Source: an uncultured Desulfuromonadales bacterium (GTDB lineage: Bacteria > Desulfobacterota > Desulfuromonadia > Geobacterales > Pseudopelobacteraceae). From it: DNA of 64,000 bases. A model generated the notes under the pieces. The model had not been told where the DNA came from and did not search any database. It worked only from the letters and a program-made list of their open reading frames with translations. The DNA is taken from the NCBI GenBank assembly GCA_903868145.1, contig CAIPTY010000010.1, positions 62,001 to 126,000 on the forward strand. Reading direction: 5' to 3'. The position numbers and the translations under genes were made by a program. Positions 4,653 through 63,390 of this stretch are shown in pieces (positions within the stretch are counted from its first letter, which is position 1; every line of letters begins with the position of its first letter).

Positions 4653-7292
4653 TTAAGCCAGTTTTTTCAATACATCACGCAGAACTGAGAGCTTGTACGG
4701 TTTCTGCACAAAGCCGGCAAGACCTTTGCCGACAAACCTCTGTGTGACATCCTGCTCGTTGTATCCGCTGGACATGATCACTTTAATGTCCGGTTTGATT
4801 TTGCGGAGTTCCTTGAAAGCCTCTTCTCCATCAAGTCGTGGCATGGTTAGATCCAGAAGCACTATGCTTATGCCGGTTCGACTCTGCATGATATCAAGCG
4901 CATCCTGCCCGTCGTTGGCGGTGATGACCTCAAAACCGAGCTCTTTGAGCATCTCGCTCCCAATGGAGCGTACAATTTCTTCATCATCAACGAGCAGGAC
5001 CGTGCCGCTGCCTTTCCAGTCGTCGCGACAAACTACATCCCCGGAAGATTCCACCGGCGATGTGCTTGCGGGAAGCAGTATCTTGAACACGCTCCCCTTG
5101 CCGGGTTCGCTGTATATCTTGATTGCGCCCTTATGGCCCCTGATTATGCCGAACACCGCTGCCATACCGAGCCCGCGGCCGGTGAATTTTGTCGTAAAAA
5201 AGGGATCGAATATTTTAGCCAGTGTATCCTTATCCATGCCGCAGCCGGAATCGGCAATGTCAAGCACGATGTATAAACCTTCCGGGAGATCCTCGGAAGG
5301 CCAGAGGCCGGCAAGGTAGCTCCGCTCGCAATGCATCTGACTGGTACTCACGATAATTGTGCCGTTATTGTCTCCAAGAGCTTCCGAGGCATTGATGATC
5401 AGGTTCATGACCACTTGATGAATCTGGGTTGCGTCGGCTTCAACGCGGAGCAGGGGCCGGGTAAGGTTGAGACTGAGAGCCGCCTTTTTCGATATGGATA
5501 CCTCCACCATATGGAGCATCTCCTCCAGCAGACAGTTCAGATCGATATTCTCTATCACAAACCTGCCCTTGCCCGAGTAAGCCAGCATCTGCCTTGCCAG
5601 ATCAGCAGCCCGGGCCGCGGCCTGCTCTATCTTGCGCAGATTGTCCAAAGCGGGCGACCCGGGATTGATGCGCCTGTTCGCCAGTTCCGCGTGGCCGATG
5701 ATCGAGGTAAGGATATTGTTAAAGTCGTGTGCTATGCCACCGGCAAGTATGCCAAGGCTCTCGAGTTTCTGGGAATGCTGGAGCTTCTTTTCGAGTTTGA
5801 TCCGCTCTTCTTCTGCATGCCTTCTCTCGGTAATGTCTCGCGTGATGCCAAGTATGGAGACAATGTCGCCCTGCTCATTCTTCAGGGGGACAACATGGCT
5901 CTCAAGCCATAACGAGCAACCTTTCAAACCTGTCATGCTGAATGAGAACGTACCGGGATTGCCATCAAAGGCATCCTCTGTAGCCTGTATGAATGCTTCG
6001 CGGTAATCCGGGTTAACCAGCTTGTAGGCATATGTTCCCTTGACCTCGTCGAATGTTTCAGCCTGGATCATGGCCAATCCGGCGGGGTTCATCATCAGGA
6101 GCGCCCCGTCACGATCAAGTATCTTCACGCAGTCGGGCACCGTTTCAATAATTGTCTTCAACTGTTGTTCCTGAACCCTGAGAACGTCTTCAACCCTCTT
6201 TCGCGCATTCAGTTCCAAGCGAAGCTGTTCATTGGCGGAGTTCAGTTCTGAAGTCCGCTCCAATATCTGCCCCTCCAGGTGCTCGTTGTGGTGATGAAGA
6301 GCAATTTCAGACAGTTGGGTCTGTTTCCATCGTTGAAACATCAGGCGTGCCGAGAAGAGAGAGCCCAGAGCAAACAGCAGGAGTAGAATCGATGTTTTCC
6401 AGATTTCATCGTACCAGTCAGCAAGATAATTTCCGGGCGACCGGCCGGCGTTGAGATAAAGCGGGTAGCCGGGAAGTTTTCGGAAAGAAAATGTTCGAGG
6501 CACTGTGTCAATGCTACCCCGGGTGCTATAGCTGCCGGTTTCTTCCCCACTTTTTACGAGACGGCGCAACTCTTCCGAAACGGTTTTGCTGCCTGTGGTA
6601 CTGCTGCCACCCGGAGATTCCGGGTGACGTGCTATCACATCCAGGTCAGAGTCCCGGAGTGTGATGACACCGTCTTTTCCCAGATCAAACGCAGAGAAGA
6701 GCTTGACCAGCGAATCGGTTGCCATGGTGGCTTGAACGATTCCCGCAAAAGAGCCGTCAGGGTTATTGATGCGACGGCCAGTGATCAGGATCCATTTATT
6801 ATTCACCCGCCCGAGTATCGGTTTTGAGAAGATCAGACCCGCGTGAGCATTTTGTTTCAATCTGATGAAATGTTCACGATCGGCTATGTTGACAACGACT
6901 TTAAATGCGCCGCCTTCAATGGCAACCATATCTCCATTGGGCTGGATGATCTGAATATTGGTTACTTCCGGGATTCGGGAATGCTGGCGATCTTCCAGCT
7001 CACACAGTTTTTTCCAGTCGATGGAGCCGTTGGCAAGCTGTTTTTCAGCTTCATCTATGATGGTAAGAAGAGTGAGATTGGCCCTGTTGAATATGCCGGA
7101 GAGAGTCAGTTCGAGTGCCATAACCAGGTTCTGAGTCTGCGCTTCGGCTCTGCTCACGTACTGCTGTCTGCTTTGAATCAAAAACAGCGCCGAGAGTGAA
7201 ACGACAAAGATATTGATCAGCATGAAACCGACAATAAGCCGTACGATGAAGTTGCGTCTTCGTGCAACGGATTCTGGTCTGTCGGGACTCAT
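4653..7292 (-). CDS. hybrid sensor histidine kinase (Cache-PAS-HisKA-HATPase-REC)
   Basis: 879 residues. Order: membrane segment about 15-38; a periplasmic double-Cache sensor (about 40-295) with the VVNIADREHFIRL and GRRINNPDGSFAGIV patterns; a second membrane segment about 297-315; a coiled linker; a PAS domain (about 370-497); a HisKA box with GGIAHDFNNIL, phospho-His near 523; HATPase with DSGCGMD and GRGLGMAAVFGI; and a C-terminal receiver with VLLVDDEE and the phospho-acceptor in VLLDLTMP near residue 812. It probably senses a small extracellular ligand and autophosphorylates. No separate response regulator is adjacent, so its output partner is unknown. A terminator hairpin follows. Confidence 0.93.
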   Translation of the reverse strand: MSPDRPESVARRRNFIVRLIVGFMLINIFVVSLSALFLIQSRQQYVSRAEAQTQNLVMALELTLSGIFNRANLTLLTIIDEAEKQLANGSIDWKKLCELEDRQHSRIPEVTNIQIIQPNGDMVAIEGGAFKVVVNIADREHFIRLKQNAHAGLIFSKPILGRVNNKWILITGRRINNPDGSFAGIVQATMATDSLVKLFSAFDLGKDGVITLRDSDLDVIARHPESPGGSSTTGSKTVSEELRRLVKSGEETGSYSTRGSIDTVPRTFSFRKLPGYPLYLNAGRSPGNYLADWYDEIWKTSILLLLFALGSLFSARLMFQRWKQTQLSEIALHHHNEHLEGQILERTSELNSANEQLRLELNARKRVEDVLRVQEQQLKTIIETVPDCVKILDRDGALLMMNPAGLAMIQAETFDEVKGTYAYKLVNPDYREAFIQATEDAFDGNPGTFSFSMTGLKGCSLWLESHVVPLKNEQGDIVSILGITRDITERRHAEEERIKLEKKLQHSQKLESLGILAGGIAHDFNNILTSIIGHAELANRRINPGSPALDNLRKIEQAAARAADLARQMLAYSGKGRFVIENIDLNCLLEEMLHMVEVSISKKAALSLNLTRPLLRVEADATQIHQVVMNLIINASEALGDNNGTIIVSTSQMHCERSYLAGLWPSEDLPEGLYIVLDIADSGCGMDKDTLAKIFDPFFTTKFTGRGLGMAAVFGIIRGHKGAIKIYSEPGKGSVFKILLPASTSPVESSGDVVCRDDWKGSGTVLLVDDEEIVRSIGSEMLKELGFEVITANDGQDALDIMQSRTGISIVLLDLTMPRLDGEEAFKELRKIKPDIKVIMSSGYNEQDVTQRFVGKGLAGFVQKPYKLSVLRDVLKKLA

Positions 7293-7358
7293 TCAGAATT
7301 TTCCTTAAGAAGTACGTTTTTGGAGTTCACAGCATTTACTTTATGGTGTGTCGGCGGG

Positions 7359-7808
7359 TCAGCCGCGAAAAATCAGCCTGTCCAGACACCATCTTCCGCC
7401 ACCGGCAATCAGCAGGTACAGCGCGATGCCGAGGAGCGCGAGATTGTATTCAATGCCGTGCCCGAGGCCCGGCCTGCAGGTCATGTTCAGGAAAAAGCCG
7501 TGGGCCCAATGTATTTTGTAGATACCCACCAGCATGACCGCAGAGATAGCAGCGGCGGAAAGGCGCGTCAGGAAACCGGTCAGAATGCCGAAACCACCGC
7601 CGAATTCAGCAATGATTGCCAGCAGGGTAAAAATGGCAGGGATGCCCAGATCCTTTTCAAAGCTTGCAAAGGTGGCGGTAAGGCCTCTTCCGCCGAAAAT
7701 TCCGAATAATTTCTGCGATCCGTGGGCCATGAAAATGAGTCCCAATGGTATGCGCAGCATTAAGGGAGCTATCAGTCCGGTTGCGTCAAAACTGCTTTTA
7801 GAAGCCAT
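7359..7808 (-). CDS. DoxX-family membrane protein
   Basis: 149 residues with four predicted hydrophobic helices. The family hallmarks are present: LMLRIPLGLIFMAHGSQKLF near the N-terminus, then a GFGILTGFLTRLSA loop and an LALLGIALYLLIAGGG final helix. DoxX/YphA proteins are inner-membrane proteins of mostly uncertain role; some are quinol-oxidase subunits or take part in redox and thiol stress. The ATG at 7808 has GAGG 6 nt upstream and lies inside the end of the GGDEF gene (11-nt overlap), so the two are co-transcribed. Confidence 0.85.
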   Translation of the reverse strand: MASKSSFDATGLIAPLMLRIPLGLIFMAHGSQKLFGIFGGRGLTATFASFEKDLGIPAIFTLLAIIAEFGGGFGILTGFLTRLSAAAISAVMLVGIYKIHWAHGFFLNMTCRPGLGHGIEYNLALLGIALYLLIAGGGRWCLDRLIFRG

Positions 7809-8676
7809 TCTCCACCTCGTCGGCGTTTTTGAAGACGAGCCTGTCCTTGCTGCTGTGCTTGGCCACGTACATCAGTGCATCAGCCTGTTGTATGACTTCG
7901 TCGATGGTTACAGGGGCGTTCTGGTATGAAATGGCGCCGATACTGAAGCTGACCGGCCAGCGGTTGTCATCCATTGCCTTCTGCATGCTGGCGTGCAGTT
8001 TCTCAAGAAACGTCCGGGCAGCATCGGTATAGGTTTCGGGCAAAAGCAGGACAAACTCGTCACCGCCCAATCGAGAAAGAATGTCGGTGCTTCGTATCTG
8101 TGACATGATGGTCGTAACGACTGTTGTCAGAAGCCTGTCTCCGGTGCTGTGTCCCAAATGATCGTTGATGCCCTTAAAATTGTCCAGGTCTATATAGGCT
8201 ATGGTAAAAGGCTGTTTGTAACGCCGCGATCTGTTGATTTCATATTCCGCCAGATCAAAAAAAGATCGCCGGTTGAGAGCACCGGTCAGCGGATCAGTGC
8301 TTGCCAGTGCCTTCTCCTTATCCAGATTGCTGCGAAGCGCCGAGAAAAGCAGGCTCATGACCAGCAGAAACAGAAACTCGACGGTTATGTTCCAGTAATG
8401 GAGTCTGGCGATTTTATCACTGAGAAGACCGGAGGCCCCATCAGCAGTGACCCGAGTGATCAGGGTAAGAAAGCAGAACAGCAGGCCGTACGACCGGGAA
8501 ACGAACCAGGCCACCAGAGAGACCGGAAAAAGATAAAAAACGATCAGAGAATAGTCACCGGTCACATAATCCAGATAACCCAGACAAAACAGAGTAACGA
8601 TGCTGAGGGCGACAAGCGTGATCCTGCTCTGAGTGGAGAAAAGGTTGATCATGGTGTTGTGGATACGTATCAGCAT
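7798..8676 (-). CDS. membrane diguanylate cyclase (GGDEF)
   Basis: 292 residues if started at the ATG at 8676, which has AGGA 6 nt upstream; a longer frame to 8760 lacks a ribosome site. The N-terminal half has about four membrane helices (LVALSIVTLFCLGYL, IVFYLFPVSLVAWFV and others) without a recognised sensor fold. The C-terminal GGDEF domain has DPLTGALNRR, the active-site loop RLGGDEF, and an intact RxxD inhibitory site (RSTD) nine residues before it, so it should make c-di-GMP from two GTP and be product-inhibited. It overlaps the doxX-like gene by 11 nt. Confidence 0.9.
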   Translation of the reverse strand: MLIRIHNTMINLFSTQSRITLVALSIVTLFCLGYLDYVTGDYSLIVFYLFPVSLVAWFVSRSYGLLFCFLTLITRVTADGASGLLSDKIARLHYWNITVEFLFLLVMSLLFSALRSNLDKEKALASTDPLTGALNRRSFFDLAEYEINRSRRYKQPFTIAYIDLDNFKGINDHLGHSTGDRLLTTVVTTIMSQIRSTDILSRLGGDEFVLLLPETYTDAARTFLEKLHASMQKAMDDNRWPVSFSIGAISYQNAPVTIDEVIQQADALMYVAKHSSKDRLVFKNADEVENGF

Positions 8677-8897
8677 TGCGATCCTGTGTGCGGGATGTGG
8701 CGGAAATTGTTGAAAACCTATAACATAATTCATCCTTAAATTGCAAATTATAGCGTTCATTCATGACGGATGCCGCCTGTTGGCTACATGCGGAGAGGGC
8801 TTCTGCAACAAAGTTTGATTAATTACAAATTCGCATGTATACTGACTCCTGGAAGATCGTTCACAATCACCCGTATGCGATCAGCGAGGATCCTGCC

Positions 8898-9187: not shown

Positions 9188-10450
9188 TCAGAAACCGAAG
9201 ATCCCCTTGATAATCGAACCGCCGATGCCGGGACGCGACTTGTCTGAATCGCCGTCTGAAGATTCATCCCTTACCCGCGGGGCGCTGGAGTCATCATCGG
9301 CTGGCCTGCTCTTCCGGGGTCTGCTCTTTCGATCCCGTCCCTCATTCCCGTCCCTCAACATTGTCATTCCGGTTGATTTCAACCGCACCTTGACCGACCA
9401 TTGCGGATCCCACGGATGTCCGGGATTCTTTGGGCGGGGCGGGTGTACCAGGTTCAATTCTTCACCATAGGCTATAAACTGGAGCATGGCGCCCTGCACA
9501 TCCTTGAAAATCGGCGGCACCGTACAGGTTGTCCGTGAAGGATCCATGACAACCCTTTCCCTGATGAAGCGGCTCACGTCGGCAGGTGACAGGTAATCCT
9601 GCAATGCAAAACCGACCTCGGGCATCTCGCTTGCGGACCAGAAGATTGAATCCCCCGTTTTCTGGTCATGCGCCATTGCAGCGGCAAAATAGCCGATCGC
9701 AGTGGGTATGGACTGCCACTCAAGGATTGTCGCACCGGCGGGAGTGGCCTGAATCGATGAGAACGTGACCGGCGCCATGAAGTCGCGTTTCCGGTCCAGA
9801 GAGAAGCCGATGTCCGGCAGATAGTTGCCCCTGACGAGGTGACTGCCGACCAGTGAGCTATCCTTGGGGACATCTTTTTTATCATCTTTGTTTGGCCATT
9901 CGCCATACACCCAGCCTTTGTGAGCCGATGGCGGAGACTGGCGTGTCGGCGTGTGTCCCGTGAATGCCCGGCCGAAATCCTCGGGGCTCATGCGCGCTGT
10001 GTCGAGTACCCGTGGCTGGCCTTTGCCAATGTTTTCACCGCATCCCCAGTAGATCAACATCCGTGCCTTGGGCTTTTCGTATTCCATCCTGCGTCGCTCC
10101 TGCGGAACACGCTCGCTCTTCTCAACTATGGGAGTAATCAGCGGCAGCGTTGCCCCCATGTTCTGTCCGGGTGGTATCGCATGATCGGCCCGGGGAGATT
10201 CCGCGGGGGAACGGGGAGACTCGACCTGCAGAATCAGTTCCCTTTTTGGCCCGAAAGCGCCCCTGCCGCCAAACATGCCGCCCATGCCGGACATCTCGGC
10301 CGACATGCCGGGGATGCTCTGATTGCTTGTTGACACACTCATCCAGTAATGCGGATACGGTCTTACCTGTTCGGCAGCATGTACAGCAGCGCTATTTCCG
10401 GCCAGCAAACCACATCCGGCCATTGCTGCAACAACCCATAATCCCCTCAT
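9188..10450 (-). CDS. exported protein of unknown function
   Basis: 420 residues from the ATG at 10450, which has GGGAGGAG about 6 nt upstream; the frame extends to 10510 but without a ribosome site. The signal peptide ends around AAVHA-AEQ. After a Gly/Met-rich stretch (GMSAEMSGMGGMFGG) comes a domain with RMLIYWGCGE and a later DPQWSVKVRLKSTGM strand. The last 50 residues are highly charged and rich in Arg, Lys, Ser and Asp, ending in IGGSIIKGIFGF. I know no function for the family. It is isolated and divergent from the REC-GGDEF gene. Confidence 0.75.
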   Translation of the reverse strand: MRGLWVVAAMAGCGLLAGNSAAVHAAEQVRPYPHYWMSVSTSNQSIPGMSAEMSGMGGMFGGRGAFGPKRELILQVESPRSPAESPRADHAIPPGQNMGATLPLITPIVEKSERVPQERRRMEYEKPKARMLIYWGCGENIGKGQPRVLDTARMSPEDFGRAFTGHTPTRQSPPSAHKGWVYGEWPNKDDKKDVPKDSSLVGSHLVRGNYLPDIGFSLDRKRDFMAPVTFSSIQATPAGATILEWQSIPTAIGYFAAAMAHDQKTGDSIFWSASEMPEVGFALQDYLSPADVSRFIRERVVMDPSRTTCTVPPIFKDVQGAMLQFIAYGEELNLVHPPRPKNPGHPWDPQWSVKVRLKSTGMTMLRDGNEGRDRKSRPRKSRPADDDSSAPRVRDESSDGDSDKSRPGIGGSIIKGIFGF

Positions 10451-10690
10451 ATCATCTCCTCCCAGAGTCGTATTTTTTGTGAATCCTACCACAAAAATAA
10501 ATCTTCTCAAGCTTTCTTCATGCTCTATCGGAACGCACTATCTCAATTGTCATGCGGATGGAACAATTTTCCATGTATGCCGAATAAAACGTACGTCTAT
10601 AATGACAAGATTAAAACATGGTGTTATAGTACCGGCAAAAAATCGGTTTGGCATCAGCCGAGTTTGACCCTGACAGGAGACCAGCCAGAA

Positions 10691-11647
10691 ATGACGTCAG
10701 TTCACACCACATCAGAGGTACTACCCCGTATTCTGGTCGTTGAAGATGATCCTATCGCCAGAGCCATTCTTTCAGCAAGCCTGAAAAAGGATGGCTATCA
10801 GGTTGATGTTGCCTCCAATGGTCAGGCCGCCATCGACAAGTACAGCGAAGACTTCTTCCCCGTCATCATCACCGACTGGCTGATGCCTGAGATGGATGGC
10901 ATCGAGCTCTGCCGCATGATCCGCAGCATGAATATAGACCGATATATCTACATCATTTTCGTGACGAGCCAGGATTCCCGCGAAGATGTTATCAAAGGCC
11001 TGGATGCCGGCGCCGATGACTATATCATCAAGCCGATCCACCACTCCGAGTTGCGGGCGCGTATCAAAAGTGCATGCAGGATTCTGGATCTGGAAACGAA
11101 ACTCAAGAACAGTCTGGCCAAAAGCCACGAGCTTGCCATTCATGACCCTCTGACCGGGGCTTTCAACCGGGTCTACATGGATCAGCAGCTCCGGCTGGAG
11201 CTGATTCGCTGTGAACGCTATCACCGTCCCCTTTCGGTCATCATGTGCGATCTGGATCACTTCAAGGCGGTCAACGACACCCACGGACACCTGGCAGGTG
11301 ATGAGGTTCTCAAGTCGTGTGTCGAAAGCATCATGTCATCTCTGCGCAAGGGGATTGACTGGGTGGCGCGGTATGGCGGCGAAGAGTTCGTGGTGGTACT
11401 GCCTGAAACCGGGCAGGCCGTGATTGATGCTCTGGCGGAGCGGTTGCGCCTGAAGATTGCCAGCACACCGGTTGATGTGAACGGGTTCGAGATAAACGTT
11501 ACGGCGAGCTTCGGCGCGGCAACGCTCGTACCGTCTTTCACTGAGTCACGCCGCACCATCGAGCAGATACTTAAAGTGGCCGACTCCTGTCTCTACCAGG
11601 CCAAGGACAACGGTAGAAACCAGGCGGTATCCGGGATACTGGAGTAG
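10691..11647 (+). CDS. response regulator with GGDEF output (PleD-like)
   Basis: 318 residues from the ATG at 10691, preceded by AGGAGA at 10 nt; an upstream extension to 10520 is unlikely. The receiver domain has EDD at 18-20, phospho-acceptor Asp62 (TDWLMPEMDG), and the conserved Lys in YIIKPIHHSEL. The GGDEF domain carries DPLTGAFNRVYMD and the active loop RYGGEEF near residue 230. The inhibitory-site position reads KGID rather than RxxD, so product feedback is probably weakened. It should make c-di-GMP upon phosphorylation. No cognate kinase is adjacent. Confidence 0.93.
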   Translation: MTSVHTTSEVLPRILVVEDDPIARAILSASLKKDGYQVDVASNGQAAIDKYSEDFFPVIITDWLMPEMDGIELCRMIRSMNIDRYIYIIFVTSQDSREDVIKGLDAGADDYIIKPIHHSELRARIKSACRILDLETKLKNSLAKSHELAIHDPLTGAFNRVYMDQQLRLELIRCERYHRPLSVIMCDLDHFKAVNDTHGHLAGDEVLKSCVESIMSSLRKGIDWVARYGGEEFVVVLPETGQAVIDALAERLRLKIASTPVDVNGFEINVTASFGAATLVPSFTESRRTIEQILKVADSCLYQAKDNGRNQAVSGILE

Positions 11648-11733
11648 ATTTTTCCTGCGGAGCTGGAATGTACGGCAGGGTGAAGAAATCCCGTCCGAGG
11701 CAGACAGGGATGTTTATTTTTCGGAGGTACGTG

Positions 11734-12870
11734 ATGCACATCTCAACACGGGCGGTTCAGGTCGGGCTGGAGTGGGATACCAGAACCGGGGCGGTGACGG
11801 TTCCGATCTACCAGACCGCCACCTTCCGTCATCCTGGCCTCGGGCAGAGTACCGGTTATGACTACTCGCGCAGCGGAAACCCCACCCGCCAGACGCTGGA
11901 AGACGGTATCGCACTCCTGGACGGCGGCTCGCGGGGCTTTGCCTACTCATCCGGCATGGCGGCGATTGCAAATCTGCTGCACCTGTTCAAGAGCGGCGAT
12001 CACCTTGTGGTTACGGAAGATCTGTATGGTGGCACCTGTCGGCTGTTTGACAAGATATTCAGCCAGTATGGTCTGAGCTTCACATATCTGGATACCAGTG
12101 ACACCGCTTCAGTGCAGGCTGCAATAACTCCCGCTACGCGGGCGCTGTTCGTCGAAACGCTTACCAATCCGCTGCTGAAATTCGCTGACCTCCCAGCCTT
12201 ATCCGCGCTCTGCCGCTCAAGGGATCTGCTGCTGATCGCCGACAACACCTTCCTGACACCCTACCTGCAGCAGCCGCTTGAACTGGGAGCCGACATAACC
12301 GTCTACAGCGCCACCAAGTATCTGTCAGGGCACAACGACACCATCGCCGGACTGGTGGTTGTCAAGGATCCCCGGTTGGCCGAGCAGGTCTACTTTCAGC
12401 AGAATGCCGTCGGCGCCGTACTGGGGCCTCAGGATTCCTGGCTGGTGATCCGCGGCATGAAGACCCTGGGGGTGAGGCTCGACCGCCAACAGGAGAACGC
12501 AATCAGAATCGCCCGGTGGCTGAACGCCCATCCACGTGTGCGCACCGTTTTCTATCCCGGCATGGAGGAACATCCTAACCATGAGTTGATGGCACGAGAC
12601 GCCCGCGGCTTTGGCGCAATGATTGCCTTCGAGGTTGACAATCACGCGCTGGTTGAGCAGGTGCTGCTGAAAACACGCCTGATCTCGTTCGCCGAGAGTC
12701 TGGGGGGGGTGGAGAGCCTGATGACCTTCCCCGAGGTGCAGACTCATGCCGACATCCCCCCGGAACTGCGGGCCCGTTTAGGGATCAACAACCTGTTGCT
12801 GCGTCTGTCGGTGGGGATTGAGGATGTCAACGATCTCATTGATGACCTTCAGAACGCCCTGGAGGGGTGA
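11734..12870 (+). CDS. trans-sulfuration PLP enzyme (cystathionine gamma-synthase/beta-lyase type), copy 1
   Basis: 378 residues from the ATG at 11734, with GGAGG 6 nt upstream; the frame runs further 5' but without support. The fold-type I Cys/Met metabolism PLP enzyme signature is complete: YSRSGNPTRQTLE, SSGMAAI, DNTFLTPYLQQPLELGADI, and SATKYLSGH with the PLP-binding Lys195. Such enzymes join or split cystathionine in methionine/cysteine interconversion. Sequence alone does not separate gamma-synthase, gamma-lyase and beta-lyase here. The neighbour 11 bp downstream is a paralogue of exactly the same length, so the pair probably cover two consecutive steps. Confidence 0.9.
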   Translation: MHISTRAVQVGLEWDTRTGAVTVPIYQTATFRHPGLGQSTGYDYSRSGNPTRQTLEDGIALLDGGSRGFAYSSGMAAIANLLHLFKSGDHLVVTEDLYGGTCRLFDKIFSQYGLSFTYLDTSDTASVQAAITPATRALFVETLTNPLLKFADLPALSALCRSRDLLLIADNTFLTPYLQQPLELGADITVYSATKYLSGHNDTIAGLVVVKDPRLAEQVYFQQNAVGAVLGPQDSWLVIRGMKTLGVRLDRQQENAIRIARWLNAHPRVRTVFYPGMEEHPNHELMARDARGFGAMIAFEVDNHALVEQVLLKTRLISFAESLGGVESLMTFPEVQTHADIPPELRARLGINNLLLRLSVGIEDVNDLIDDLQNALEG

Positions 12871-12881
12871 GGACAGTTACC

Positions 12882-14018
12882 ATGAAACTCGCAACCAAAC
12901 TCATCCATGGCGGCCCGAACGTTGATCCCCAGACCGGGGCGCTGGGTGTGCCGATCTACCAGATTTCAACCTATCAGCAGACATCGGTCGAACATTTCAG
13001 AAAGTATGATTACGCCCGCGGCGACAACCCGACCCGTGAGGCGCTGGAGGATACCATTGCCGTTCTGGAGAGCGGAACCCGCTGCCTGGCCTTTGCCTCG
13101 GGCATGGCCGCCATCTCCACCACCCTGATGATCTTCTCTCCCGGCGATCACCTGGTAATCTGCGATGATGTCTACGGCGGGGCATACCGGGTGCTGTCCA
13201 CGATTTTCAGCCGCATGGGGATCGAATCCACCTTTGTGGATGCGACCGATCTGAGTGCCATCGAAGCAGCCGTCCGGTCGAGCACCAAAGGCCTTTATCT
13301 GGAGACCCCCTCCAATCCGCTGCTGAAGGTTACCGATCTGCGCGGCGCGGTGGAAATAGCCCGTCATCACGGCATCATAACCCTGGTGGACAATACCTTC
13401 ATGACTCCCTACCTGCAACGGCCCCTGGAACTGGGCTGCGACATCGTCCTGCACAGCGGCACCAAGTTTCTTAACGGCCACAGTGATGTCATCTGTGGTT
13501 TCGCGGTGGTCAAGGACACTGAACTGGGAAGCCGCATCCGGTACATCCAGAACGCTTTTGGTACCGGGCTGGGGCCGCAGGACTCGTTCCTGACACTGCG
13601 CGGAGTCAAGACCCTCAAAGTCAGAATGGATCGCAGCCAGCAGACCGCCATGAAGATCGTCGAATGGATGAATCGTCACCCGCTGGTAACCGCGGTGCAT
13701 TACCCCGGTCTTGGGAGTCATCCCGGGCATTTGGTTCACCACTCTCAGTCCGATGGCCCCGGCGCGGTTTTTTCCTTTGAACTGGATTGCTTTGAAACTG
13801 CCAGGAAAGTGCTGGAAGGAACGAGGCTTTCGGCATTTGCCGTCAGTCTGGGTGGCGTGGAGAGCATTATTTCCTACCCGGCCCGCATGTCACATGCCTC
13901 GCTTCCAGCAGACGAGCGGCTGCGCAAGGGGATAACCGATACACTGGTGCGGCTCTCTGTAGGGCTTGAAGATCCTGACGATCTGATAGCCGATCTGGAG
14001 CAGGCAATCGGCAGATAA
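12882..14018 (+). CDS. trans-sulfuration PLP enzyme, copy 2
   Basis: 378 residues from the ATG at 12882; a GTG at 12867 overlapping the previous stop is possible but has poorer spacing. Motifs: YARGDNPTREALE, ASGMAAI, DNTFMTPYLQRPLELG, and SGTKFLNGH with PLP Lys195, all at the same residue numbers as in the preceding gene, showing tandem duplication followed by divergence. Likely role is cystathionine beta-lyase or gamma-synthase/lyase. Together with the upstream gene it can form a homocysteine-generating pair; metF, in the same pathway, is 25 kb away. Confidence 0.9.
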   Translation: MKLATKLIHGGPNVDPQTGALGVPIYQISTYQQTSVEHFRKYDYARGDNPTREALEDTIAVLESGTRCLAFASGMAAISTTLMIFSPGDHLVICDDVYGGAYRVLSTIFSRMGIESTFVDATDLSAIEAAVRSSTKGLYLETPSNPLLKVTDLRGAVEIARHHGIITLVDNTFMTPYLQRPLELGCDIVLHSGTKFLNGHSDVICGFAVVKDTELGSRIRYIQNAFGTGLGPQDSFLTLRGVKTLKVRMDRSQQTAMKIVEWMNRHPLVTAVHYPGLGSHPGHLVHHSQSDGPGAVFSFELDCFETARKVLEGTRLSAFAVSLGGVESIISYPARMSHASLPADERLRKGITDTLVRLSVGLEDPDDLIADLEQAIGR

Positions 14019-14035: not shown

Positions 14036-15571
14036 CTATGGGGGAGTTTTCTTCGGGTTGCGAATCTTGAACTCGAGGTACTGAATAGCTTTTCCCTGTT
14101 TATCACTGTCACCCACCTGACCGGCAAGCTGCTTCAGCGACTGGAGTATCCGCGACTCCTCCTCTTTGTGATCAAAGCAGCCCCCCTCAACCCTCTTTCT
14201 GACAAAGCCAAGAAGAGCCTTTCGCTCATCATCGGATACAATCCGTTCGGGAGCCGCTATGAACAGGATGTAGCGCGCCATTGAGCGGATGGAGTCATCC
14301 AGACTCATATCCTTCTGGAGCGACTCCATAACTGTCGCAATGCTGCCGTTTTCCGCGTAGTTGAGATTTTTTCTGACGGTGTAATAGTGCAGATAGGCCA
14401 GAGCGGCAGCCTGGCTCTCCCGGTCTCCCAGCTTGAACAGCATCAGATGGGCAACCTGCAGTTTGAGTGCATCCTCTTCTTCAGGCAACAGGAAGCAGCG
14501 CAGCATCAAGGCAATTTTTTCGCGAGCGGCAGGAGTCAGCGACTCGCCTTCAATCCTGCCCCTAATCTGTTCCAGCAGATCCCGCTTGTTGGCGGAATCG
14601 CCAAACCTGATCTTGACGATCAGGCTGCGCACCTCGCTGTCATCGGTAAAATCCCACAGGTGATCCACTGCCGAAATGATCCGGCGGGAGATCAGCTTGA
14701 TCTTGTCATCCTTCAGCGGTTCGTTCTGATTCCAGTAATCGGGGTAGGTATCAAGCACCGCATCCACACTCTCGCCGTCTCTGATTTTTTGCAGAACAAA
14801 ATGGAAGTAGGTCAGTATCCTGAGTTGATAGTTTGTACCGCCTTCGTTGAGAGGACGCAGCAGATCTTCCAGAAACGCGGGATTCAGGCCTGATGTCCCA
14901 TTGCACAGGAAGCGGTAGACCCCTTCGGCCTTATCAATCTGTTTTTCAACATATTTCTGGCGGAGCGCCAACCCCAGGTTGGTGGACTGCACCTTTTTGA
15001 AAAACACGCTCAGCAATGTTGAAGCATAGTGCTTCATGTTGTTATCGGCATCATCTGAGATAATGATGTCGAGACAGGCGTCAAATATCCTGACCTGCTC
15101 CAGTTCGTCCTGCGAGCAGTCGATGTATTCTTCGAGGATGGCAATAATTTCAGACATGTGAGCCCGGTTCCGGCTACTGAGAAGAGTCATGAAGGTGTCA
15201 CGCAGACTCACGGCGTCCACGACGCCAAAGAGGAACTTTACAGCCGCGTTACGCTTGCTGAAACCCTTGTTATCCGAGGATTTGAGAAGCTTCAGGATGC
15301 TCTCTGCCGGATCCGACACCCATCCAGGCACCAGCGCCTCCATCATGAACTCGGCCTTTTTGCGCACCCTGGCGTCCAGATCGTAAATGAAATATTTTGC
15401 AACCTCTATTTTGAATTCCCGCATGGCCGAAGATGTCGCAATGATCTCGAAGGCAACCGCCTTGTCCTTTGCGGAAAGCTGTGCAAGATCCTTCTTTGCC
15501 TTGGCGGCATCGTTTATTTTTATGTAGAAATTTACTATATCCTTGACGGATAATTCTGCATCAAAGTCCAT
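14036..15571 (-). CDS. large all-helical (HEAT-like) protein of unknown function
   Basis: 511 residues from the ATG at 15571, chosen because GGAGGG lies 8 nt upstream; an in-frame extension to 15628 lacks this. There is no signal peptide or membrane segment, so it is cytoplasmic. The composition is helical throughout, with recurring 35-45-residue helix pairs (for example AVAFEIIATSSAMREFKIEVAKY and DARVRKKAEFMMEALV) resembling HEAT/armadillo repeats, which usually act as protein-binding scaffolds. No catalytic motif seen. Convergent with the trans-sulfuration genes and divergent from the MuiA-like gene. Confidence 0.7.
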   Translation of the reverse strand: MDFDAELSVKDIVNFYIKINDAAKAKKDLAQLSAKDKAVAFEIIATSSAMREFKIEVAKYFIYDLDARVRKKAEFMMEALVPGWVSDPAESILKLLKSSDNKGFSKRNAAVKFLFGVVDAVSLRDTFMTLLSSRNRAHMSEIIAILEEYIDCSQDELEQVRIFDACLDIIISDDADNNMKHYASTLLSVFFKKVQSTNLGLALRQKYVEKQIDKAEGVYRFLCNGTSGLNPAFLEDLLRPLNEGGTNYQLRILTYFHFVLQKIRDGESVDAVLDTYPDYWNQNEPLKDDKIKLISRRIISAVDHLWDFTDDSEVRSLIVKIRFGDSANKRDLLEQIRGRIEGESLTPAAREKIALMLRCFLLPEEEDALKLQVAHLMLFKLGDRESQAAALAYLHYYTVRKNLNYAENGSIATVMESLQKDMSLDDSIRSMARYILFIAAPERIVSDDERKALLGFVRKRVEGGCFDHKEEESRILQSLKQLAGQVGDSDKQGKAIQYLEFKIRNPKKTPP

Positions 15572-15704
15572 GTTCGCCGCCCTCCAATAGAATATCCAAA
15601 CTATACCTGCATCTTTCGGCGAGTGCAAGTTTCAGAATGTTATCACTGGCAATTATCGACAGTCCTGTGACATAATCCGCCAAACATTCAATAAGGAGCT
15701 TCCC

Positions 15705-17954: not shown

Positions 17955-18314
17955 ATGAAAAAGGTTCTGATCGTTGACGACAGCCTTTCTGTAGCCCGTC
18001 AGCTCGAAAAGATCATCGCTGACTCCGGCGATTTCTGTTGTGTCGGCCACGCGAAAAACGGTGCAGAAGCAATCAGGATGAATCACACGGAAAATCCTGA
18101 TTTAATCTGCATGGACATGAACATGCCCGGGATGGACGGTCTCACGGCTTTGCGCAGTCTGGTGGTGCTGGACAAGGAGGTCAAGGTGGTGATGATTACC
18201 TCACTGGGCGGGATCGGAGACAAATTTACCGAGGCGATCAAGCTGGGCGCCCGAAGTGTCATATCAAAACCTTTCACTACCGATGATGTCCTGCGGGTTT
18301 TGCGGAATTTATAA
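17955..18314 (+). CDS. single-domain CheY-like response regulator
   Basis: 119 residues, receiver domain only. Key residues: Asp8/Asp9, phospho-acceptor Asp54 (ICMDMNMPGMDG), Thr82 and Lys105 (VISKPF). A strong AAAGGAGG ribosome site precedes the ATG. The next gene, 42 bp downstream, encodes a CheX-domain phosphatase, which in other bacteria dephosphorylates CheY; the two are probably a matched pair. No kinase is nearby, so the input is unknown. Confidence 0.93.
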   Translation: MKKVLIVDDSLSVARQLEKIIADSGDFCCVGHAKNGAEAIRMNHTENPDLICMDMNMPGMDGLTALRSLVVLDKEVKVVMITSLGGIGDKFTEAIKLGARSVISKPFTTDDVLRVLRNL

Positions 18315-18356
18315 ACGCGTCAACGAATCAACTCGATACAAACAAGGGGACGTGAT

Positions 18357-19223
18357 ATGGCCGTCAAATTTTTCGGGCAGTTTCTGGTGGAAAATAGAAT
18401 AGTTTCCCGTGAAGCCCTTCTCAGGGCGATAAAGCTTCAGGACGAAAAAAACCTTAAATTGGGCGAGATGGCCATCAGCTTGGGGTTTGTCACACGGTCT
18501 GATATTGAACGGGCGCACGGTGCCCAGATGACAAAGGACATGAAGCTTGGAGATCTTCTGGTGGAAATGGGGTTCTTAACCCTGACCCAGCTCGATGAGG
18601 TTATAGTCCGCCAGAAAAGTACCCACCTGTACATCGGCGAGGCGCTGGTGCTGGTCGGGGCCTTGAGTAACGGGCAGCTTCAAAGGCATCTTGATGAGTT
18701 CAAACAGGATCAGGCACAGTATGTTTCCGAGCGGATTGAACTTCCCGATGGAGTCGCAAATGCCAGGATATGGGAGATGACTGCCGACCTGACGTACAAG
18801 ATGATCACCCGTGTTCTTGGTCTCCAGTTCCGGCCGGGTAAATGTCAGACCGTTGCCACCGTTGGGACCAACTTCATGATGGCGGCAATGGACATGACCG
18901 GAGACGCTGAGGCGCGCTACATCATCTCGGTATCGGAAGGCCTGCAGAAAGAGATTGCCAAGGCCGTCCTGCATGAAATGAACGTGGATGCGGAACCGGG
19001 CGAGGTACTCGAAGATACGGTCATGGAGTTTGTCAATGTTGTCTGCGGCAACGTGGCGGCCAAGGCCTCCCAGATGGGAAAAATCATCGACATCCACCCG
19101 CCCGTCACCATCCACCCGCCTGTGGATGGTTTGCCGGTTCCTGATGGGCAGACAGCCCTCTGCTTCCCCATTCACGTTGGAGAAGGCGACAGGATGGAGT
19201 TGATTCTCCTGATAACGAACTGA
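18357..19223 (+). CDS. MshEN-like/CheX fusion protein, probable CheY phosphatase
   Basis: 288 residues. The first 125 are four repeats of a 24-29-residue unit of the form xLGExLvxxGxLtxxqLxxal (KLGEMAISLGFVTRSDIER, KLGDLLVEMGFLTLTQLDEV, YIGEALVLVGALSNGQLQR, and a diverged first copy), resembling the N-terminal MshEN domain of type II secretion/pilus ATPases that binds c-di-GMP. Residues about 140-288 form a CheX domain with the phosphatase ExxN motif at Glu224/Asn227 (EFVNVVCGN). Paired with the upstream CheY. The c-di-GMP link is inference. A short HPPVTIHPPV duplication lies near residue 245. Confidence 0.8.
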   Translation: MAVKFFGQFLVENRIVSREALLRAIKLQDEKNLKLGEMAISLGFVTRSDIERAHGAQMTKDMKLGDLLVEMGFLTLTQLDEVIVRQKSTHLYIGEALVLVGALSNGQLQRHLDEFKQDQAQYVSERIELPDGVANARIWEMTADLTYKMITRVLGLQFRPGKCQTVATVGTNFMMAAMDMTGDAEARYIISVSEGLQKEIAKAVLHEMNVDAEPGEVLEDTVMEFVNVVCGNVAAKASQMGKIIDIHPPVTIHPPVDGLPVPDGQTALCFPIHVGEGDRMELILLITN

Positions 19224-61007: not shown

Positions 61008-61379
61008 ATGAGTACCAGAAAGTTTTCCCGTGTCAACTTTCGAGTCGATGCGACCATCAAAGCAGCAGACCGCCAGTTCAGCGGCAGTGTTGACAACCTC
61101 AGCATGAGCGGCATGTTCATGGTAACTGACAAGCGTCTGCCACTGAACGAGCCTGTTGACATTACCATCGCCATAACCGGTACGGAGCCTCAGATCAGTG
61201 TCAATTTCAGCGGTAAGGTCGGCAGGATCATTGAAAATGGCATGGCATTCATCTTCGAGAAAATCGATCTGGATTCCTACACGCACCTAAAGAACATCAT
61301 CGCATATAACATCGACGATTCCGAAAAGGTGATGGAGGAAATCTACCATTCAATCGATGAGAAGCGTGCAAGAGAATAG
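61008..61379 (+). CDS. PilZ-domain protein (c-di-GMP receptor)
   Basis: 123 residues, essentially one PilZ domain. The c-di-GMP-binding RxxxR motif (RKFSR, Arg4 and Arg8) and the (D/N)xSxxG motif (DNLSMSGMF, residues 28-36) are both intact. Its likely role is to bind c-di-GMP made by enzymes such as the two GGDEF proteins in this window and pass the signal by protein contact. Its ATG follows fba by 49 bp and the methyl-accepting gene follows 34 bp later. Confidence 0.9.
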
Positions 61380-61413
61380 TACTACTTACCTGACCGTCCT
61401 CAAGGGTGGCATC

Positions 61414-63390
61414 ATGAGAAAACAATCGACCGTTTTTTCCATAGCCGGTTTTCTTCTCGGAAGCGGTGCGCCGATCGGATGGGTCTTCATCAGGATTCTG
61501 TTTTTCTACGAAACCAAAAAGTCCGTTTTTGATCAGGTAATTGGAGATATTTTCCTGAACCGTGAGCATCTGGCTTTTTACTGTTACATGGCACTCGGGA
61601 CAGCGGTTGTCCTCTCCATTCTGGGTTATCTGATCGGGAAAAACGGGGATGAGCTTCGGGTACGGGCTACCGAGCTGGCGATCCTGCACAGGGAGGTCGC
61701 CTCCCAGAAAGAGATTTTCGAGAACCGTTACAAGGTTCTGGACAGCAACATCAAAAACTTTCACCACATCAGCAGTAAAATGCAGATGTCGCTTGATATT
61801 GAAGAGATCCTGCTGCTGTGCGCAGAAGGCCTGCACGAGGTGTTGGGATACGAAAGAGTCAATATCCTGATGACCGAGGATGGCAAGAATGTCCGTTTTG
61901 TGGTTGCTCTGGGCACGGATGCCTTCAATATATCCGGCGTCACCATGCCCCTGGACGAACGAATCGGCGTTATCTACAAGTGCTTCAATGAGAAAAAGGT
62001 CTATCTGATTGATGATATTTCACGGCATCCCGATGATTATCATCTACAGGCGCCGTATAACAAACTGACTCCGCTCCGCTCGAAAAGCTTTATTCTCTGC
62101 CCGATCATCGTCAAGGGGCAAAGCATCGGCGCATTCGCCATCGATAACAAATCAAGTAAACGCGCCCTTAACGATTCCGATGTTGATACCATCATGCTGT
62201 TTGCCGACCAGGTTGCCTCGGCAGTCACCCGCATCAATCTGCTCAAATCGATCGATACCCTGACAGGTGAGATGGAAAACTCGTTTACCTCGCTGCTGGC
62301 CAGCCGCGAACAGTATTCCCGTAATGTAACGGACCTCAAGGATAACGTGGATTCACTGGCCGACGGCACTGCCGTTATCGCTTCGGCCTCTGAAGGCGTG
62401 ATGGCCTCTGTGGATGAAACCAGCAGTGCAGTCAACGAAATCTCCGTCGCCATCGAACAGGTTACCCGCAACCTGGATCACCTGGCAGGCATCGTTCAGC
62501 AGTCCGCCTCGGCCATGGAAGAGATAAACACCACCATCAGCAGCGTGGAGCAGAATGCGGCGATTTCCCACGAAGTTTCGAGCCAGGTCAAATCTCAGGC
62601 TGACGAAAGCCTGAACGTCGTTGCGGAGACCATCAACTCTCTGGCAGAGATCCAGGTCTCGGTCGGTCTCTCCTACGATGCCATTACACGTCTTTCAGAA
62701 AACAGCAGCCGCATAGAAAACATCGTCAGCGTTATCAATGACATCACCAAACGCACCAATCTGCTGGCCCTCAACGCCTCGATCATTGCCGCCCAGGCGG
62801 GAGAGTACGGCAAGAGCTTCGGGGTTGTCGCCGATGAGATCCGCAACCTCTCGCTGCAGACGGGACAGTCCACCGGCGAGATCACCGGCATCATCGAAGA
62901 GATCATGAGCGAATCCAGCACCGCCGCCAGCAACATTACGGCCACAAAAAGCCTGGTTCAGCGCGGGGTTGAGCTTGGACACGGTACCGGCAAGACCCTC
63001 AAGGCAATCTACGACAGCTCGGTCTGCTCCATGGACATGACCCAGCAGATTAAACAGGCAACCGCAGAACAGGTTTCCAGTGTCCAGATGGTCTCCCGTT
63101 CCATGGAGGATATCAGCTCCATGACATCCCAGATTTTTGCCGCCTCCACCGATCAGGCCAGGGCGACCAGGAGCATTGCGCGTTCGATAGAGGCTATCAA
63201 GGACATGGCCCACGAAATGGTCAGATCCACAACCCACCAGGTTGAAGACGGTCGTCAGATCCGCCGAACGGTGGAATCGGTCAGCATGATGGTGACAGAA
63301 ATGTTCGACAATATGGAACGGCGCCGCACCGAAAGCGCTGCGGTAATCATGGAGCTTGAGTCCATGAAGAATCGCACCAGCCAGATATAG
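61414..63390 (+). CDS. GAF-containing methyl-accepting chemotaxis-type protein
   Basis: 658 residues from the ATG at 61414 (AAGGGTGG upstream); the frame extends into the PilZ gene end (61357). Two membrane segments (about 10-30 and 60-80), a coiled linker, a GAF domain (about 130-285, with [23 protein letters not shown]), then the signalling domain. The hairpin tip reads [38 protein letters not shown], differing from the canonical AAIEAARAGEQ. The input is therefore probably an intracellular GAF ligand, and the output a CheA pathway not encoded here. Confidence 0.9.

Follow-up and report, generated by a model that had tools for sequence, protein, structure and literature searches.

Can a second messenger determine how long a chemotaxis-type receiver stays phosphorylated? 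The question is raised by a two-gene locus within the window (the whole 64-kb stretch of DNA that was analyzed), in which a gene for a CheY-like receiver (REC) is followed by a gene joining four MshEN-type repeats, similar to the c-di-GMP-binding motifs of MshE, to a CheX-type phosphatase domain (here MshEN4-CheX). The features of the locus are as follows, with amino acid (aa) positions counted along MshEN4-CheX and conservation counted over the orthologue rows defined below:

17955-18314, plus strand: CheY-like single-domain receiver (REC) gene, 119 aa; Pfam Response_reg, E 2.9e-25
18345-18350, plus strand: Shine-Dalgarno-like AGGGGA, 6 nt 5' of the ATG at 18357
18357-19223, plus strand: MshEN4-CheX gene, 288 aa; ATG at 18357, stop at 19221-19223
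18369-18440, plus strand: motif unit 1, aa 5-28 (FFG...L...I..Q); F5, F6, G7 and Q28 invariant, 79/79
18456-18527, plus strand: motif unit 2, aa 34-57 (KLG...I...H..Q); forms an MshEN-like bundle with unit 3 in the model
18543-18614, plus strand: motif unit 3, aa 63-86 (KLG...L...I..Q); bundled with unit 2 in the model
18630-18701, plus strand: motif unit 4, aa 92-115 (YIG...L...L..F); ends in Phe instead of Gln, F115 invariant, 79/79
18744-19220, plus strand: CheX domain, aa 130-288 (start approximate); Pfam CheX, E 7.5e-15
19026-19037, plus strand: ExxN motif, E224-F-V-N227; E224 and N227 invariant, 79/79 and in 13/13 diverse members

Architecture and distribution of MshEN4-CheX

The earlier note had read an open reading frame at 18357-19223 as four repeats followed by a CheX domain with an intact ExxN motif, with a CheY-like gene directly upstream. 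Position, motifs, CheX assignment (Pfam match, invariant E224 and N227) and upstream receiver all hold, the two genes lying on the same strand with a gap of 42 bp. An artefact of frame or chance was considered for this reading frame and ruled out by its NCBIfam and Pfam matches together with its conserved relatives.

A scan of a genome collection yielded 94 confirmed relatives, the best 80 of which are 44-77% identical over nearly the whole length and are labelled mostly Geobacter, Geobacteraceae, Desulfuromonadales and their genera, or "Deltaproteobacteria", with two Nitrospirae. Conservation counts rest on 79 rows, i.e. the window and 78 of these 80 relatives (L049 and L083, with frames of 197 and 138 aa, were excluded), and the alignment used for modeling has 77 rows, the window and 76 relatives, L073 and L076 being excluded as well. 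Sampling of the window's family found the gene in 31 of 36 genomes, and it occurs in 5 of 21 other genomes of the order. When a profile of 13 diverse members was run against 395 genomes drawn evenly from the phylum, 52 matched at E 1e-12 and the full-length protein was found in 13. A search for the same domain order in other genomes, which had been suggested as a check, therefore succeeded both among the best 80 of the 94 relatives and in these 13 phylum genomes.

The array comprises four 24-residue motif units (aa 5-115), each linker being exactly 5 residues long, which follow to varying degrees the motif consensus (R/K/L)LGxx(L/V/I)(L/V/I)xxG(L/V/I)(L/V/I)xxxxLxxxLxxQ. The NCBIfam model NF053729.1 (c-di-GMP_motif, MshE-related) recognizes it at 84.2 bits (cut-off 38, E 3.9e-24) in two stretches and matches all 77 of the 77 aligned members; among the 7 families returned by the Pfam search at E up to 1 there was no MshE/GspE N-terminal domain model. 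Glycine at motif position 3 (G7, G36, G65, G94) is present in 79/79 rows in every unit, as is glutamine at position 24 in the first three (Q28, Q57, Q86), where unit 4 has F115; the position-24 Gln pair is thus available to unit pairs 1+2 and 2+3 and absent from 3+4. At position 1, K34 and K63 fit the extended Arg/Lys/Leu consensus, unlike F5 and Y92. Departures from consensus are found in units 1 and 4, namely FFG, YIG and, in unit 4, the exchange of the final Gln for Phe. The leucine pair that contacts guanine is fitted by L21/I25, L79/I83 and L108/L112, and in unit 2 its place is taken by I50/H54, position 54 being His in 75 and Asn in 4 of the 79 rows.

The C-terminal part matches Pfam PF13690 (CheX) at 55.2 bits against a cut-off of 27, and its E224-F-V-N227 aligns with ELGN of Thermotoga maritima CheX; the role of the Glu and Asn of ExxN in CheX catalysis is described in PMC3035606. 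An AlphaFold2 model built on the 77-row alignment (pLDDT 87.7, pTM 0.64) is in keeping with both halves of this assignment. Residues 134-287 of the model superimpose on T. maritima CheX (1squ_A; Z 20.2, rmsd 2.1, 151 aligned), and the CheX part also fits CheX from the CheX-CheY complex of Borrelia burgdorferi (Z 18.4), with Foldseek and VIA-align both placing it on 1squ and 3hzh. Like the T. maritima and B. burgdorferi proteins, MshEN4-CheX has the CheX fold, the ExxN motif and a REC partner; unlike them, it carries a 120-aa N-terminal array, and its phosphatase activity is predicted. Five CheX-type matches occur in the genome, four of them on other contigs, so MshEN4-CheX is not its only CheX-type protein. 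Tran et al. 2008 (PMC2577667) examined three Geobacter genomes and counted a single cheX per genome.

A receiver in three arrangements

A REC gene lies directly upstream and on the same strand in 78 of 80 loci (the best 80 of the 94 relatives), against a background of 0.052 REC-like matches per kb of the remaining flank; these loci are related by descent and are not independent. In the two others, the sequence upstream of L047 stops after 173 bases, and L061 lacks a REC match nearby though the flank is present. L061 belongs to a genome (G348) that holds two full-length MshEN4-CheX genes, the second being L072, with a REC gene upstream of one only. Other neighbors are less constant: a divergent peptidyl-prolyl isomerase gene is found at 42 of the 80 loci and a convergent methyltransferase gene at 39, many loci being cut by contig ends. 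The receiver has D8, D9, D54 and K105, which are invariant in 9 diverse RECs.

By itself, an upstream REC gene in close orthologues could be mere inheritance. Among the 13 full-length members from the phylum, REC is adjacent in 12, upstream in 9 and downstream in 3 (G264, G327 and G443, all of one family), and the thirteenth (G012) has 173 bases of contig upstream. A third arrangement comes from a plasmid collection in which 2 of 72,556 records match, both from Lachnospira eligens: a 435-aa chain (L096:6001-7308, NC_012780.1), annotated only as "response regulator", combines array, CheX-like domain and REC (E 3.5e-31). It aligns along the full length of MshEN4-CheX with 23% identity (287 aa, E 8e-8), and L097 is 29% identical to L096. 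Pfam CheX scores fall below the 27-bit cut-off in L. eligens (19.2), L097 (24.7) and L098 (19.4), and the CheX assignment in these three rests on full-length alignment and the conserved E and N. Binding of c-di-GMP is least certain in L. eligens, since no single unit pair reaches the NF053729 cut-off (26.8, 35.6 and 19.9 bits) and Q28 is missing along with the Gly of unit 4.

That the order of the two genes varies between lineages, and that they are fused in one, is good evidence that REC and MshEN4-CheX work together, and since REC is found downstream or fused in distant members, we consider it very probably the substrate of the CheX part, as far as sequence and gene order can tell. The pairing of MshEN with CheX is not itself new: Wang et al. 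2016 (PMC5013675) name REC, CheA, CheX and others as partners of MshEN and state that MshEN_N can also occur as (MshEN_N)2. That mention has the same domain combination and takes up one sentence; in the sections of the text covered (PMC5013675) no protein of the MshEN4-CheX family, no REC partner and no mechanism is described. A full-text search of open PMC papers, subscription papers being outside its scope, found MshEN and CheX together only in PMC5013675 among the matches listed, and no work on MshEN4-CheX itself among them. What is new here, and well supported, is the REC partnership in three arrangements (upstream, downstream and fused). CheA-CheC/CheX fusions of Leptospirae likewise join CheX to a signaling domain, in their case a kinase and not a cyclic-dinucleotide receptor, according to PMC10542144.

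Contacts of the putative c-di-GMP site

Within the predicted model, aa 32-89 form the four-helix bundle of MshEN_N. This segment superimposes on residues 7-64 of c-di-GMP-bound MshE (5htl_B) with Z 11.3 and an rmsd of 1.4 A (58 aligned, 34% identity; VIA-align), and Foldseek places it on 5htl at 0.9 A over 56 columns (36% identity). Every one of the nine MshEN/GSPII-type entries among the listed matches falls on model residues 28-90, i.e. units 2 and 3. Profiles of the PDB entries land on units 2+3 (MshE) or 3+4 (PilF GSPII-B). Picking the ligand pair by NF053729 profile score failed: neighboring pairs 1+2, 2+3 and 3+4 taken singly all match, at 51.1, 44.2 and 46.1 bits. Units 1 and 4 might form a second bundle with each other. 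The MshEN_C subdomain is absent from the protein.

Alignment equates R9, L10, G11, L25, L29 and Q32 of MshE with K34, L35, G36, I50, H54 and Q57 here, and R38, L39, G40, L54, L58 and Q61 with K63, L64, G65, L79, I83 and Q86. Seven of these twelve contact positions are identical, four are conservative and one (H54) is neither. The Gly and Gln corresponding to G36, Q57, G65 and Q86 are polar ligand contacts in MshE (PMC5013675), and all four are invariant here in 79/79 orthologue rows and in 13/13 diverse members, down to 22% identity. Exchange of both Gln for Glu abolishes binding in PilF GSPII-B, a domain that has Lys and Leu at position 1 and binds c-di-GMP at 6 nM; such nanomolar binding with Lys makes K34 and K63 compatible with binding. 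The resemblance of the array to MshEN of Vibrio cholerae MshE and to GSPII-B of Thermus thermophilus PilF thus extends to the 24-residue motifs, the 5-residue linker, the predicted four-helix bundle and the contact Gly and Gln. It differs from them in having four units in a row, no MshEN_C or ATPase, His54 for Leu29 and Phe for the last Gln, and its binding is putative. Leu29 of MshE stacks on guanine, and replacing any one such hydrophobic residue cost MshE more than 10-fold (PMC5013675). Loss of the ligand-contacting residues, which the earlier note had named as evidence against its reading, is accordingly seen in part: most contacts are kept and four are invariant, whereas Leu29 has become His54 and units 1 and 4 are off consensus. 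On balance, we expect that the array probably binds c-di-GMP.

The same departures suit another explanation, in which the CheX part dephosphorylates REC and the array is a nucleotide-free, rigid scaffold for protein-protein contact or dimerization that places the phosphatase. The changes that speak for it are all conserved (Phe or Tyr stands for the first Arg in units 1 and 4, unit 4 ends in Phe where others have Gln, and His54 takes the place of a contact Leu), the PilB N-terminal domain in complex with PilZ (7lkm) is among the structure matches listed, and GSPII domains that do not bind are known: XpsE has a GSPII domain without c-di-GMP binding (PMC5013675), and PilF GSPII-A illustrates that a good motif by itself is no guarantee of binding. 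A scaffold would not obviously need exact ligand contacts, however, and the invariance of Gly3 and Gln24 throughout units 1-3 and of the four polar contacts among diverse members makes this explanation rather unlikely. Conservation among the orthologues is less easily placed. In units 2+3 the ligand-type positions exceed the remainder in conservation only slightly (permutation 0.043), and in units 1 and 4 they rank highest of all (0 of 20,000 permutations). The ligand site may therefore be located in another place, or structural needs may account for the conservation.

His54 also bears on which cyclic dinucleotide would be bound. The half-sites of units 2 and 3 are unlike (His54 against I83), 3',3'-cGAMP is bound weakly by MshE (PMC5013675), and cGAMP signaling through Hypr GGDEF enzymes has been described for Geobacter. 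The same mechanism with cGAMP as the physiological ligand is nevertheless quite improbable in our estimate, His54 being present also in distant members of the phylum. Arrays that lack CheX differ at this position. Of 25 such stretches, 18 cover at least 95 of 120 columns, and 17 of these 18 have Leu there; unit 4 ends in an aromatic residue in 12 of the 13 whose final position is occupied. It therefore seems that a terminal aromatic residue is typical of four-unit arrays as a class, and that His or Asn at position 54 distinguishes those fused to CheX.

A proposed phosphatase circuit and its surroundings

In the proposed mechanism, REC would be phosphorylated by CheA or another kinase encoded elsewhere, and the CheX domain would hydrolyze the phosphoaspartate by inserting E224 and N227 into the active site of REC. 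The four-hairpin array would bind c-di-GMP, units 2 and 3 being the likeliest to hold it between them, and ligand binding would alter the phosphatase through its activity, its oligomeric state or its placement; c-di-GMP would thereby set the duration of REC phosphorylation. The dephosphorylation of CheY under c-di-GMP control that the earlier note had suggested therefore has one well-supported part, the pairing of CheX with REC, and one conjectural part, the coupling. We lean slightly toward c-di-GMP controlling the CheX phosphatase, and we regard the complete two-gene module, a phosphatase of the neighboring CheY-like REC that is set by c-di-GMP, as an evenly balanced proposition. A wider formulation is tentative: a cyclic-dinucleotide-gated CheY phosphatase module, separate or fused, might exist in the window's phylum and in Bacillota, its array reading c-di-GMP or, in the Geobacter relatives, cGAMP through the His54-altered site, and so setting the lifetime of phosphorylated REC directly, bypassing transcription or kinase.

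Information might also flow in reverse, with CheX binding phosphorylated REC and controlling an array that acts on another machine, e.g. the ATPase of a type IV pilus or secretion system that has MshEN domains itself. Four-unit arrays without CheX occur alone (frames of 129, 136, 162 and 170 aa) or with REC-REC-PAS (548 aa), which suggests that an array may have an output of its own, and the 19 matches of the c-di-GMP motif model in the window's own genome mark MshEN-type motifs as common in this organism. The intact ExxN, however, speaks for turnover beyond docking alone, and no other gene is as constant a neighbor as REC; we therefore hold this direction of control to be improbable. The 548-aa protein (L095:1438-3084), with its array, two REC domains and PAS, comes from another family of the same phylum. 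At L109 (G385:C417:7619-8530), array-only frames of 129 and 136 aa, with four MshEN units each, are neighbors. Outside the window on the same contig (G000:C10:47260-48042), a 783-aa frame has three c-di-GMP motif stretches, including the genome's best match.

If the preferred reading of a c-di-GMP-set phosphatase is true, the second messenger of the motile-to-sessile switch would have a direct effect on the off-rate of a chemotaxis-type receiver, and the "settle or move" messenger may be connected to a signaling switch within a single molecule, whose gene is common to many metal-reducing bacteria. Small proteins (119 and 288 aa), found in most sampled genomes of the family, make binding and phosphatase assays direct, and the fused Lachnospira protein is a single-chain version of the proposed circuit.

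Two GGDEF enzymes had been cited as a link to c-di-GMP. They are indeed encoded in the window, 6-10 kb away (7798-8760, minus strand, and 10520-11647, plus strand); the link is rejected, as they are neither in the operon nor conserved neighbors and no evidence connects them to it. GGDEF proteins match at 5 and 17 of the 80 loci with median identities of 33 and 32%, a scatter to be expected of a common domain. An Rfam scan of the 64-kb window at gathering scores gave no match and hence no sign of riboswitch control, and promoter and terminator scans near the operon returned 3 against a shuffle mean of 1.5 and 3 against 1.6, not far from the shuffles. Elsewhere in the window, a hybrid sensor kinase (Cache, PAS, HisKA, HATPase, REC) lies near a GGDEF gene (4653-8760), the gene at 10520-11647 encodes REC-GGDEF, and a chemoreceptor with GAF and MCP signaling domains is encoded at 61357-63390, 42 kb from the MshEN4-CheX gene. 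Long frames at 9188-10510 and 14036-15628 have no Pfam match at E 1e-5, and positions 11668-14018 hold a tandem overlapping pair of Cys/Met metabolism PLP enzyme genes.
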